DNA of 33,331 nt, taken from NCBI RefSeq assembly GCF_002252665.1, contig NZ_NQKZ01000021.1:1-33331 (forward strand), read 5' to 3'. The notes below the pieces were generated by a model. The model did no database searches and was not told where the DNA came from. It saw only the letters and a list, made by a program, of their open reading frames with translations. Shown in pieces: positions 17,569-32,905 of this stretch; position 1 is the first letter of the stretch, and each line of letters starts with the position of its first letter. A program made the translations under genes and the position numbers. The DNA comes from Synechococcus sp. 8F6 (lineage in GTDB: Bacteria > Cyanobacteriota > Cyanobacteriia > PCC-6307 > Cyanobiaceae).

Positions 17569-20500
17569 TCAGTCGTCGTCATAGTCCGCGACGCCGAGGG
17601 ATTCGTAGGTGGGCCGGCTGGGGGTGCTGCGGCGGGGGTTGACGTCCTGCATCAGATCCACTTCTTCGCCGGCATCGGTGTACACGGCGATATCGAGACC
17701 AAGCGACTGCAGCTCGCGCATCAGCACCTTGAACGACTCGGGAGTGCCGGGGCGGGGAATCGGCTTGCCCTTGACGATGGCGTTGAGCGCCTCGTTGCGG
17801 CCCTGCATGTCGTCGGACTTGACGGTGAGCAGTTCCTGCAGGGTGTAGGCGGCGCCGTAGGCCTCGAGGGCCCACACCTCCATCTCACCCAGGCGCTGGC
17901 CGCCCTGCTGGGCCTTACCGCCCAGGGGCTGCTGGGTCACCAGCGAGTAGGGGCCGGTGGAGCGGGCGTGGATCTTGTCGTCCACCAGGTGCACCAGCTT
18001 AAGGATGTGGGCATAACCCACGGTCACCGGCTGGTCGAACGGTTCGCCGCTGCGGCCATCGATCAGCTGGATTTTGCCAGGGTTTTCCGGGTCGTAGACC
18101 CAATCCTTGCCAGGCAGCTTGGCCGCCTCTTCCAGGTAGGCCTGCACCGTCTGCTTGCTCTTCTCGGCACCGTGCATCTCGTCAAAGGGCACCACCTTGA
18201 CGCGGCAGTCGAGGTGCGATGAGGCCCAGCCCATCAGGCACTCGAACACCTGGCCCACGTTCATGCGGCTCGGCACACCCAGGGGGTTGAGCACGATGTC
18301 GATCGGGGTGCCATCGGGCAGGTAGGGCATGTCCTGCTGGGGCAGGATCCGGCTGATGATGCCCTTGTTGCCGTGGCGGCCGGCCATCTTGTCGCCCACC
18401 TGGATCTTGCGGCGCTGGGCCACATAGACCCGCACCACCATGTTCGCGCCCGGAGGCAGCTCGTCGCCCTGCTCGCGGGTGTAGATGCGCACGTCCACCA
18501 CGCGACCCCGCTCGGTGCTGGGAACCCGCAGGGAGTTGTCGCGCACATCGCGGGCTTTCTCACCGAAGATTGCGCGCAGCAGCTTCTCTTCGGGGGGCTG
18601 GTCGGATTCACCCTTGGGGGTCACCTTGCCCACCAGGATGTCGCCGCTTTCGACATAGGCGCCGATGCGGATGATGCCCATCTCGTCGAGATGACCCAGG
18701 CTCTCCTCGGCCACGTTCGGGATTTCCCGGGTGATTTCCTCGGGTCCAAGCTTGGTCTGACGGGCCTCGATCTCGTACTTCTCGATGTGCACCGAGGTGT
18801 AGAGGTCGTCGTGCACCAGCCGATCGCTGAGCAGGATGGCGTCCTCGTAGTTGTAGCCCTCCCAGGGCATGTAGGCGATCAGCACGTTCTGGCCAAGGGC
18901 GATCTCGCCGCCCTCGCAGGCCGAGCCATCCGCCAGCACCTGGCCGGCAATCACCGTGTCGCCCTGGCGGACGATCGGGCGCTGGTTCAGGCAGGTGTCC
19001 TGGTTGGAGCGCTGGTACTTCTGCAGGTGGTGCACATGGTCGGTGCCCTGGTCATCGCGGATGACGATGGCGGTGGCATCCACAAAGGTGACCGTGCCGT
19101 TGACCCGGGTGATCGGCACCATGCCGGAGTCGCGGGCGACCTGGGTTTCCAGGCCCGTGCCCACCAGGGGACGCTCGGGGCGGAGCAGGGGCACCGCCTG
19201 ACGTTGCATGTTGGAGCCCATCAGGGCCCGGTTGGCGTCGTCGTGCTCCAGGAAGGGGATCAGGGAGGTGGCCACCGAAATCACCTGCACCGGTGAAAGC
19301 TGCACGTAGTCCACCTGCTCGGGCGGCACCTTCTCAAAGTCCTGGCGATAGCGCACCGGCACCAGCTCGGCGGTGATTCGGCCGTCCGCGTCGGTCGGCA
19401 CGTCACCGGGGGCGACGCGGCACTCGTCCTCCAGGTCGGCGGAGAGGTAGATGGGATCGCCACTCTTGTGGACGATGCCGTTCTCCACCTTCCAGAACGG
19501 GGTTTCGATGAAGCCGTACTCATTCACCCGGGCGTGGGTGGCCAGCGAACCGATCAGACCGGCGTTCGGACCTTCCGGCGTTTCGATCGGGCAGATGCGG
19601 CCGTAATGGGAGGGGTGGATGTCGCGCACGGCAAAGCCGGCCCGCTCGCGGGTCAGACCGCCTGGGCCGAGGGCACTGATGCGGCGCTTGTGGGTGAGCT
19701 CCGCCAGGGGGTTGGTCTGATCCATGAACTGGCTCAGCTGGCTGGAGCCGAAGAACTCCTTGATCGCCGCCACCAGGGGCTTGGGGTTCACCAGCTGGGC
19801 GGGGGTAAGGCTCTCGGTCTCACCAACCGTCATCCGCTCCTTGATGATCCGCTCGAGGCGATTCAGGCCGACGCGCACCTGGTTCTGCAGCAGCTCGCCG
19901 ACGGAGCGGACGCGGCGATTGCCGAGGTGGTCGATGTCATCGAGGCAGGCACCGCCCACATCGAGCTCAAGGTTGATCAGGTAGTCGATCGTGCTCAGCA
20001 CGTCCTCAGGGGTGAGGGTGCGCACCGCATCGGGAATGGTGAGGCGCAGCTTTTTGTTGATCTTGTAGCGGCCCACCCGACCCAGGTCGTAGCGCTTGGG
20101 GTCGAAGAAGCGGCTGTGCAGCAGGGTCTGGCCGCCGCTGACGGAGGGGGGCTCACCGGGACGCAGCTTCTTGTAGAGCTCCAGCAGGGCCTGGTCTTCC
20201 GAGGAAATGCCCTCGTCGTTGGCCGCCTCGATCGACTTCTGGTAGTACTCGGGGTGCCGCAGCTTGTCGAGCACATCGTTGTCCGACAGACCAATGGCCC
20301 GCATCAGCACGTGGGCGTTGATCTTGCGGGTCTTGTCGACGCGAACGTGCAGCAGGTCGTTCTTGTCAGTCTCGAACTTCAGCCAGGCACCGCGATTGGG
20401 GATCAGGCTAGCGTTGAAGGTCTTGCGGCCGTTCTTGTCCTGCTCGTCCTTGAAGTAGACGCCGGGCGAGCGGACGATCTGGTTGACGATCACGCGCTCG

Positions 20501-20859
20501 GCGCCATTGATGATGAACGTGCCGCGTTCGGTCATCAGCGGCAGTTCGCCGATGAACACCTCCTGCTCCTTGATTTCGCCGGTCTCCTTGTTGACCAGGC
20601 GGCAGGTGACATACATCTGGGACGCGAAGGTCGCGTCACGGCGCTTGGCCTCTTCCACATCGTGGCGGGGGCGCTTCAGGCGGTACTCGCTACCGATGAA
20701 GTGCAGCTCAAGCTTGCCGGTGTAGTCGGTGATCGGCGAAAAGCTCTCGAGCTCTTCGATCAACCCCTTCTCCAGGAACCATTTGAAGCTGGCGCGCTGC
20801 ACCTCCACCAAATCGGGCAGGTAAGTAACGGTCTTAGCGACCTGGATCGCGCTGCTCAT
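17569..20859 (-). CDS. rpoB: DNA-directed RNA polymerase subunit beta (RpoB)
   Basis: A 1096-residue beta subunit forming the second pincer of RNA polymerase. The N-terminus is typical: [20 protein letters not shown]. The rifampicin-pocket region ([20 protein letters not shown] followed by [12 protein letters not shown]) is intact and looks wild-type. The late motifs [17 protein letters not shown] and [20 protein letters not shown] are both present. The C-terminal tail is acidic (ADYDDD). ATG 20859 was chosen over the longer frame to 20952, whose extra 31 residues run through a structured leader. A modest AGG lies 8 nt before the ATG. The leader contains a terminator-like hairpin and a 12-bp inverted repeat, suggesting regulation of the operon by RNA structure. 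Confidence 0.98.
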
Positions 20860-20920
20860 GCGGTGAACCTGCAGGAACGGGTGGGAAAGGACTGGCCGGT
20901 GGGGCACCCCATGGCGGGCG

Positions 20921-21024
20921 CTGCAGTCTTGACGGCCCGCAGCCGCCCACACAAACAGCCGCCCCCCGAGCGGGGAACGGCTGCCCGAGGGGGCTTGCTC
21001 AACGGGATTGCTTCAAGACTGCAG
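20921..21024 (-). repeat. 12-bp inverted repeat enclosing the rpoB leader hairpin
   Basis: CTGCAGTCTTGA at 20921-20932 and its exact reverse complement TCAAGACTGCAG at 21013-21024 are separated by 80 nt. Between the arms lies the terminator-like hairpin at 20956-20983. In the rpoB leader RNA the two arms could pair as a 12-bp base helix around the hairpin. A chance 12-bp match at this spacing is unlikely, although CTGCAG is itself palindromic, which makes half of the match cheaper. A regulatory RNA element is the likely reading, but structure and function are unproven. Confidence 0.6.
20946..20983 (-). terminator. Intrinsic-terminator-like hairpin between tatD and rpoB
   Basis: On the minus strand, a 12-bp stem (CAGCCGTTCCCC paired with GGGGGGCGGCTG, including two T·G wobbles) around a GCTC loop is followed directly by TTTGTGTG. 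It ends 96 nt before the rpoB ATG. It may terminate the tatD transcript or act as an attenuator in the rpoB leader. An upstream GCCCCC (minus strand, 20994 to 20989) can pair with the GGGGGC of the 3' arm, offering an alternative anti-terminator fold. Confidence 0.6.
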
Positions 21025-21067
21025 ACGTCGACAACAAGGAGCGCTTCCGCTTCCAGGCCAATGAAAT

Positions 21068-21080
21068 ATCATACATTATG
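21068..21080 (-). promoter_or_regulatory. Putative promoter for the rpoB operon at the tatD stop codon
   Basis: The minus strand carries CATAAT (21080-21075) and TATGAT (21073-21068), two -10-like hexamers in a GC-rich genome, overlapping the last codons and stop of tatD. No strong -35 is seen 16-18 nt upstream. If TATGAT is used, transcription would begin near 21061 and give a leader of about 200 nt before rpoB that contains both the 12-bp inverted repeat and the terminator-like hairpin. Confidence 0.4.
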
Positions 21081-21908
21081 AAGCGGCAGGCGGAACAGCT
21101 CGGCCGCATTGGAAGTGCTGGTATTGGCGACTTGCGTGAGGGTTTCCCCACGCAGCTCGGCCACCCGCGCCGCCACCGACGCCACGAACGCCGGCTCATT
21201 GCGTTTGCCCCGCCGGGGGACCGGCGCCAGAAAGGGGCAGTCGGTTTCCACCAGGTAGCGATCCGCGGGCACCTGCCGGGCACAGGCATGGGTGGCCTCC
21301 GCTTTGGGAAACGTGACGGTGCCGCTGAAGCTGATGTAAAAACCCAGCTCCAGAAACCCCTCCATTTCCTTGGGGTTGCCCCCCCAGCAATGCATCACGC
21401 CGCGGGGGCAAGCACCGCGCGCAGCCCGCTGGCGCAGCAGGGCCAACATCGGTTCGGCCGCATCGCGGCAGTGCACGATCACCGGCAGATCCAGCTCCAC
21501 CGCCAGATCCAGCTGGGGCTCCAGCATGGCGAGCTGCTGCTCGAGGTTGTGGTCACGAAACAGATCGAGGCCCAGCTCACCAATGGCCACCACGCGGGAA
21601 TCGGCCTGGGCGGCCTGGCGCAGCACGCCAGCGGTGTCGTCGCGCCAGTGCTCGGTATCGAGGGGATGGACTCCCACGGAATAGCGCAGCTCGGGAAAGC
21701 GATCGGCCAGGGCCCGGATCGCTGGAATCTCCGAAGGCTCCACGCAGGCATGAACCAGAGCCTGCACGCCGGCATCCCGCCAGCGCTGGGCCACCTCCTC
21801 GAGGTCCTCGTCGAAATTGCGGAACACGATGTGACAGTGGCTGTCGACCAGCGCCGCTGGAGTCACGGCTGTGGCTGGGCTCAGAGCTGTGGCTGGGCTC
21901 AGAGCCAT
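21069..21908 (-). CDS. tatD: TatD family metal-dependent hydrolase / deoxyribonuclease
   Basis: A 279-residue TIM-barrel metallohydrolase. Metal ligands are readable: His24 and His26 in DSHCH, the Glu of AIGELGLD, the His of VIVHCRDA, the His of GVMHCWGG and the Asp of LVETDCPFLAP. TatD enzymes are Mg-dependent 3'-5' exonucleases acting on single-stranded DNA or RNA and linked to oxidative damage repair and DNA turnover. ATG 21908 is chosen; a TTG at 21935 lies inside the rpsT terminator hairpin. Residues 2-13 (ALSPAT twice) come from an 18-bp tandem duplication at 21868-21903, so the N-terminal leader is of recent origin. The stop codon overlaps a likely rpoB promoter. Confidence 0.93.
   Translation of the reverse strand: MALSPATALSPATAVTPAALVDSHCHIVFRNFDEDLEEVAQRWRDAGVQALVHACVEPSEIPAIRALADRFPELRYSVGVHPLDTEHWRDDTAGVLRQAAQADSRVVAIGELGLDLFRDHNLEQQLAMLEPQLDLAVELDLPVIVHCRDAAEPMLALLRQRAARGACPRGVMHCWGGNPKEMEGFLELGFYISFSGTVTFPKAEATHACARQVPADRYLVETDCPFLAPVPRRGKRNEPAFVASVAARVAELRGETLTQVANTSTSNAAELFRLPLHNV
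21868..21903. repeat. 18-bp tandem duplication in the tatD N-terminus
   Basis: Two perfect copies of an 18-bp unit (GCTGTGGCTGGGCTCAGA on the plus strand) lie side by side. In tatD they encode the repeated hexapeptide ALSPAT near the N-terminus, before the first metal-binding histidines. The repeat keeps the frame. It is a candidate slippage site that varies between strains. Confidence 0.9.
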
Positions 21909-21956
21909 GGCACAACAAAATCCTGGGAATGGCAACCAGTGTGGCCATTCCCAGGA
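21909..21956 (-). terminator. Intrinsic terminator downstream of rpsT
   Basis: On the minus strand a perfect 13-bp stem (TCCTGGGAATGGC with GCCATTCCCAGGA, arms 21944-21956 and 21921-21933) with a 10-nt loop is followed at once by TTTTGTTGTG. This is a convincing rho-independent terminator for rpsT. The tatD ATG lies only 12 nt beyond the stem, so tatD expression depends on read-through, a processed transcript, or a promoter I could not find. Confidence 0.85.

Positions 21957-32833: not shown

Positions 32834-32905
<72 letters not shown>

Follow-up and report, generated by a model that had tools for sequence, protein, structure and literature searches.

A predicted structured RNA leader of rpoB-rpoC1-rpoC2 in Synechococcus sp. 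8F6 and its relatives, attenuator-like in anatomy

RNA polymerase synthesis limits growth, and how the level of rpoBC is set in cyanobacteria, which seemingly lack Rho, is a question made testable by the leader described here. In passages of PMC7843447, Rho is described as apparently absent in cyanobacteria, with termination thought to be intrinsic. Among described systems, cluster 245 in Table 1 of Axmann et al. 2005 (PMC1242208) bears the entry 'rpoBC operon leader, corresponds to E. coli attenuator'. The cluster consists of sequences from Prochlorococcus MIT 9313 and Synechococcus WH 8102 with an alignment length of 259, a Z of -3.7 and a Z rev of -4.53, and its authors chose not to study such elements experimentally. 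A leader of this kind was already predicted in outline by a computational screen in 2005, and this table entry contradicts the original prediction for this locus, which knew of no described cyanobacterial rpoB leader of this type; to call it undescribed is wrong. A further relative by name and table entry is the Lacto-rpoB RNA (RF01709), a conserved rpoB RNA of the Lactobacillales (Weinberg 2010, PMC2864571). No fuller description of a cyanobacterial rpoB leader is found among the full-text matches listed, judged by titles and the starts of abstracts and with most subscription journals outside the scope, and a word search returned no rpoB in the text of PMC5069720, PMC7368042, PMC2518516 or PMC2662882. 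Primary-transcriptome reads for rpoB of MED4 are presented in a figure of PMC5607370. The present work adds the architecture of the leader, support from covariation and an apparent restriction to one family.

The stretch of DNA analysed (the window) comprises 33,331 nucleotides of Synechococcus sp. 8F6, and the identities of its tatD, rpoB, rpoC1 and rpoC2 genes are confirmed by NCBIfam. The features of the predicted leader are collected in Table 1. Both -10-like boxes originally noted at the tatD stop are present on the minus strand: CATAAT at 21080-21075, and TATGAT, which holds the tatD stop codon TGA (21071-21069). TATGAT is the only conserved one of the two, CATAAT being replaced by CACAAT or CACACT in the other 14 loci of the genus. 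Of the 113 family loci entered, 106 score above 11 with a profile composed of TGTATGAT, five bases and ATTGGCCTGG, at 172 to 377 bases upstream of rpoB and often with substitutions; the exceptions are L036, L099, L104, L107, L108, L109 and L111. A simple consensus scan of the window leader region gave no sigma-70 promoter and no -35, so the claim of an rpoB promoter rests on conservation. The promoter-like box and initial sequence would place the 5' end of the predicted leader approximately 203 nt upstream of rpoB in the window, and the median leader length is 228 nt over 113 leaders, counted from the assumed start. The first ten transcribed bases are kept together with the -10 box across family loci L002-L119, and besides their pairing they possibly have a role at initiation or promoter escape. 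At the other end of the leader, the CCTGCAGGTT stretch adjoining the rpoB start, which includes the palindromic CCTGCAGG, does not vary among the 27 rows of the freshwater-type alignment. The rpoB frame is also open upstream to a GTG at 20952 (window 20860-20952, minus strand), a trap for automatic start calling within the leader. At gathering score, Rfam places no family on the leader and no ribosomal-protein leader model in the window, where the only match is a tRNA gene (32834-32905, plus strand; RF00005, 73 bits). Relaxing the threshold to E 10 on the leader gave weak unrelated matches only, and Lacto-rpoB RNA is not among the window matches at either threshold.

Table 1. Positions in the window of the genes and predicted leader elements at the tatD-rpoB junction
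Feature	Position	Strand	Basis or remark
tatD	21072..21935	minus	upstream gene; NCBIfam TIGR00010, 255.7 bits
-10 box TATGAT of the putative rpoB promoter	21068..21073	minus	conservation; TGTATGAT-N5-ATTGGCCTGG profile
Probable transcript start (~21062) and conserved initial sequence ATTGGCCTGG	21053..21062	minus	nt 1-7 form the P1 5' arm
P2 hairpin GGAAGCGGAAGCGCTCC	21038..21054	minus	model helix 2, 92.7% of cells paired
P3 5' arm CTGCAGTCTTGA	21013..21024	minus	sequence; exact inverted repeat
GCCCCC run	20989..20994	minus	in the conserved fold, GCCC of this run and GGGC form pairs below P4
P4, central GC-rich hairpin, terminator-like	20956..20983	minus	12 bp, -23.6 kcal/mol, d-score +19.9; model helix 9, 95.1% of cells paired
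TTTGTG tail, weak U-tract	20950..20955	minus	sequence 3' of P4
GGGC, 3' side of the GCCC/GGGC pairing that lengthens the P4 stem	20945..20948	minus	fold and conserved model
P3 3' arm TCAAGACTGCAG, exact complement of CTGCAGTCTTGA	20921..20932	minus	sequence
P1 3' arm GGCCAGT, pairing with transcript nt 1-7	20891..20897	minus	folds and comparison
CCTGCAGGTTCACCGC directly before the rpoB start	20860..20875	minus	AGGT is a weak Shine-Dalgarno
rpoB	17569..20859	minus	NCBIfam TIGR02013, 1670 bits; ATG at 20859

One rpoB search matched 15 of 16 genomes and the other 157 of 161, together 162 different genomes, and 118 family loci (L002-L119) were used. The promoter profile set consists of 113 of these, the start-codon pattern having missed L089, L093 and L112-L114; L089, L093, L099, L104, L107, L109 and L111 were anchored by a looser pattern. 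One plan recurs in the 118 upstream regions. The transcript 5' end pairs some 40 nt ahead of the start codon (P1), and within P1 are the small hairpin P2, the long stem P3, which includes the arms of the original prediction, and the central hairpin P4. In the freshwater-type leaders examined, this common plan is present in single-sequence folds. The 5' arm of P1 is AUUGGCC, P2 follows the pattern GGA-GCG-loop-CGC-UCC, and the GUCG of a UUGUU-GUCG stretch pairs with CGAC beside P1 (P3a), while P4 is lengthened by GCCC/GGGC pairing through its own U-rich tail. In the marine-type leaders P1, a P2 hairpin and P4 are retained, and further hairpins replace the single P3. At the sequence level, conservation is strong both in the junction stretch CTTGTTGTCGACG and in the initial sequence. 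Freshwater-type, marine-type, Prochlorococcus, Cyanobium and picocyanobacteria are inferred labels, the last being used for the family (Prochlorococcus and relatives).

Within the window, the two 12-bp arms are indeed exact complements and the GCCCCC run is where it had been reported. The GC-rich hairpin and its TTTGTG tail, given originally as 20951-20983, are both present, with the end of the tail one base off at 20950; the hairpin itself reads CAGCCGTTCCCC-GCTC-GGGGGGCGGCTG. The 12-base perfect inverted repeat is the longest in the 221-base region and was reached in none of 500 dinucleotide shuffles, and a repeat of at least 10 occurred in 20 of the 500. The fold of the 202-nt leader has an energy of -100 kcal/mol (z -2.91), with 2 of 200 shuffles as good. 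In its minimum-energy fold the CTGCAGTCTTGA and TCAAGACTGCAG arms pair around the GC-rich hairpin; since the P3 arms enclose P4, the two stems coexist and are not alternatives. A fold that contains P2 lies 0.8 kcal/mol above the minimum (-97.2 versus -98.0 kcal/mol), and enforcing P2 introduces an extra small hairpin between P3 and P1.

Several lines of evidence point to selection on the leader as RNA. Stability was computed for 86 of the 113 leaders, and 84 of the 86 fall below the mean of their own shuffles (mean z -2.28). The covariance model R1, built from seven relatives with the window left out, finds the window leader at 119 bits. Alignment A7 contains 34 full-length R1 matches, which are 34 of the 35 matches with E <=1e-6 (L008 was excluded by hand), and 27 of its 47 pairs are changed on both sides; in 200 tree simulations such pairs averaged 10.1 and never exceeded 17. 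A7 favours the model because weaker and partial matches and six opposite-strand matches were dropped. As it is also fitted to the model structure, the test was repeated on plain MAFFT alignments with each simulated set refolded. The marine-type set (22 rows) has 21 pairs changed on both sides compared with at most 14 in 100 simulations, and the freshwater-type set (27 rows, largely A7 sequences) has 19 compared with at most 10 in 100 simulations. Altogether, three tests find more covariation than tree-based simulations, on two sequence sets that range from overlapping to separate.

The best P1 partner starts 37-50 nt before the ATG in 48 of 80 dereplicated leaders, compared with 15.9% of shuffles; a binomial figure for this position is too optimistic because the leaders are related. 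Changes that preserve P1 pairs include UGGCCUGG/CCAGGCC, UGUCUUG/CAAGACA and UGGCCUGAU/AUCAGGCC. By energy alone P1 is modest, with 25 of 106 leaders at p <=0.05 and a p of 0.23 for the window. Pairing of the P3 arms recurs in relatives with compensatory changes, the same pair being C-G in L010 and A-U in L016, and double changes occur on A7 in model helices 3-6. The exact 12-bp match is peculiar to the window, whose 3' arm falls in an insertion in A7, and the helix 3-6 counts therefore support P3 in the relatives, not the exact 12-bp repeat. In per-sequence duplex tests, 13 of 25 leaders have p <=0.05 for P3 and 8 reach 0.01 (mean z -2.0), a count that uses values for L002 and L005 (p 0.547 and 0.500) in which the 3' region begins after the arm; L118 was too short. 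With its 3' side included, the P3 duplex of L002 gives z -3.39 and p 0.003 against shuffles, and that of L005 gives p 0.108. In the MAFFT-only fold of the freshwater-type set, the P3 5' arm has the ribosome-binding stretch as its partner instead of the P3 3' arm. This RNAalifold pairing with CCTGCAGG before the start codon was not adopted because CCTGCAGG is invariant in 27 of 27 rows and the arm varies (CCTGAAG, TCTTCAG, TCTGCAT) along with a changed P3 partner; it may form as an occasional alternative.

The terminator-like character of P4 was assessed with a d'Aubenton Carafa-type d-score (threshold 0), whose formula was made for E. coli and is not calibrated on the terminators of this genome. 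The score was run on 67 of the 113 leaders. It is above 0 in 20 of them, 18 at the central hairpin, compared with 1.2% of 804 shuffled leaders, and the other 47 fall below the terminator threshold. L097 and L116 score +26.5 and +30.5, and L098 and L101 score +11.0 and +4.6 with the tail UUUUUUGUUUUUUUC. The highest-scoring hairpin in the rplL-rpoB spacer of E. coli, taken here as the attenuator, reaches +28.1 by this formula. The tail UUUGUGUGGG of the window is weak and, unlike that of a classical terminator, is paired in the extended stem of the conserved fold; throughout the freshwater group the P4 tail is short and paired. A pattern scan of the window leader found one terminator-like site compared with 1.0 in shuffles, which is no excess. 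On this evidence the case that P4 serves as a leaky terminator or pause hairpin stands at about one half. As a separate observation, the AT-rich leaders L098, L100-L103 and L106 have a weaker or short central stem followed at a similar place by a long run of U (7-8 of 8 bases), and theirs are the clearest terminator-like tails of the set.

Within the genomes sampled, the long rpoB leader looks like a derived trait of the family, since loci outside it more often have a strong close promoter and a Shine-Dalgarno and R1 gives no match there at E 0.01. The outside sample consists of 34 rows of the class sample; L162 repeats L135, and L125, L150, L154 and L155 gave no start. A promoter with at least 9 of 12 consensus bases lies within 110 nt of the ATG in 17 of the 34 outside rows and in 2 of 118 family loci, and a Shine-Dalgarno-like string is present in 28 of 34 outside rows compared with 3 of 118 family loci. 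R1 has no match at E 0.01 in 38 outside loci, where its best E is 0.93. In the genome of the window R1 matches this locus only, and in 150 genomes of the order (E 0.001, strict filters) it gives one match in each of 27 and misses the rest. All 25 of these 27 matches that are comparable with rpoB loci lie just upstream of rpoB. Nine of the short outside leaders (L126, L128-L130, L132, L134, L135, L140 and L144) carry a string like GGGACTCGCGCTGGGCGTGACCC before GAGGAGACGC, which perhaps forms a small hairpin at the transcript start.

The leader is real, structured and conserved, and it is attenuator-like in anatomy. The best explanation, to which we give an even balance of belief, is that the tatD-rpoB gap encodes a 5' leader of about 203 nt on the rpoB-rpoC1-rpoC2 mRNA that would act as a leaky attenuator. 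Transcription would start near 21062, and P2 and then P4 would fold as RNA polymerase moves along the leader. P4 and its short U-rich tail would cause a fraction of polymerases to pause or terminate near 20950. Candidate determinants of how many read through are polymerase traffic, NusA/NusG, a ligand and a protein. Polymerases that read through would make the P3 and P1 partners, and the finished leader would close into one domain in which P1 ties the 5' end to the site before the start codon, a pairing that comparison supports, and leaves the ribosome-binding stretch open; P1 may also be protective. Since P3 and P1 would form only once P4 has been passed, they would be consequences of read-through and not an antiterminator.

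The leaky attenuator differs from the mechanism first proposed for this locus, in which the GCCCCC run takes up the 3' side of the hairpin to form an antiterminator that alternates with the terminator. The window is one of the leaders most open to such a switch, its antiterminator fold lying only 4.9 kcal/mol above the terminator fold, and in 35 of 42 leaders the P4-penalised fold has at least 5 bases of the P4 3' arm paired to sequence somewhere upstream. These points are outweighed by the comparison across the 42 leaders, where folds that break P4 are worse by a median of 9.8 kcal/mol and come within 5 kcal/mol in only 5, the window included. The GCCC instead pairs with GGGC beyond P4 (model helix 8), where 3 of 4 pairs are changed on both sides, and the arms are nested around the hairpin. 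Competition between GCCCCC and GGGGGG is conceivable in the window but is not conserved across leaders, and the terminator/anti-terminator switch was rejected as very improbable. Of the original interpretation, a structured leader that probably starts near 21062 and has a terminator-like hairpin upstream of rpoBC1C2 is supported, and the switch is not. That the conservation reflects only a promoter and mutational bias, with no function as RNA, is hardly credible; strong sequence conservation of the promoter and of the initial sequence is what this would predict, but both the covariation above tree simulations and the stability above shuffles speak for an RNA.

A role in processing or stability is a possible but doubtful alternative to the leaky attenuator. 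Here RNase III would cut the nested P3-P4 and P1 would shield the 5' end from decay, without regulated termination. The extended P4 stem of the window genus reaches 25 pairs with interruptions (L003) and stands on P3, P1 sequesters the transcript 5' end, and the title of Barry 1980 speaks of both attenuation and processing of E. coli rplJL-rpoBC RNA. The short stem of the AT-rich leaders (the 18-nt core of L098 has 7 pairs) with its U-rich tail is more in keeping with a terminator than with an RNase III site. It is unlikely that the leader is a sensor, whose P1-P2-P3 junction with its conserved UUGUU would bind a ligand or a protein, such as RNA polymerase, a Nus factor or a ribosomal protein, and in this way set read-through or translation. 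The conservation of CTTGTTGTCGACG and of the initial sequence would fit such a role, and in outline the three-way junction is similar to known cis-regulatory RNAs. The Rfam results argue against a sensor, as does the finding of no conserved alternative fold of P4, and the GTCG of the CTTGTTGTCGACG stretch is already accounted for by the CGAC pairing of P3a. A Nus boxA pattern gave a single match with one mismatch, on another contig, which is no more than in the reversed control. A wider conjecture, which we hold to be rather unlikely, is that a family-specific RNA domain replaced a short rpoB leader and Shine-Dalgarno in the picocyanobacterial ancestor and that the junction of this domain monitors what state the transcription machinery is in or how much of it is available. 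If that conjecture were true, the Rho-less, regulator-poor picocyanobacteria would have a dedicated RNA feedback on RNA polymerase synthesis. The covarying rpoB leader, present across the sampled genera of the family and not found in the cyanobacteria sampled outside it, offers a concrete control point in what are presumably picocyanobacteria and is a candidate Rfam family.

Compared with known systems, the present leader is like cluster 245 in being a predicted structured RNA upstream of rpoBC, the two being matched by gene and not by coordinates. The marine-type leaders of the family fold likewise and belong to the same gene as cluster 245, on the same gene-level match. Cluster 245 differs in that it consists of two sequences, with no structure or wider survey in the portion of PMC1242208 covered. 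The E. coli rpoBC attenuator is alike in having a terminator-like hairpin upstream of rpoB with a d-score in the same range. That attenuator is located in the rplL-rpoB spacer and has a UUUUU tail, whereas the present leader follows tatD and so does not lie between rplL and rpoB. The present leader further differs from the E. coli attenuator in its putative promoter of its own, its weaker tail and its domain closed by P1.
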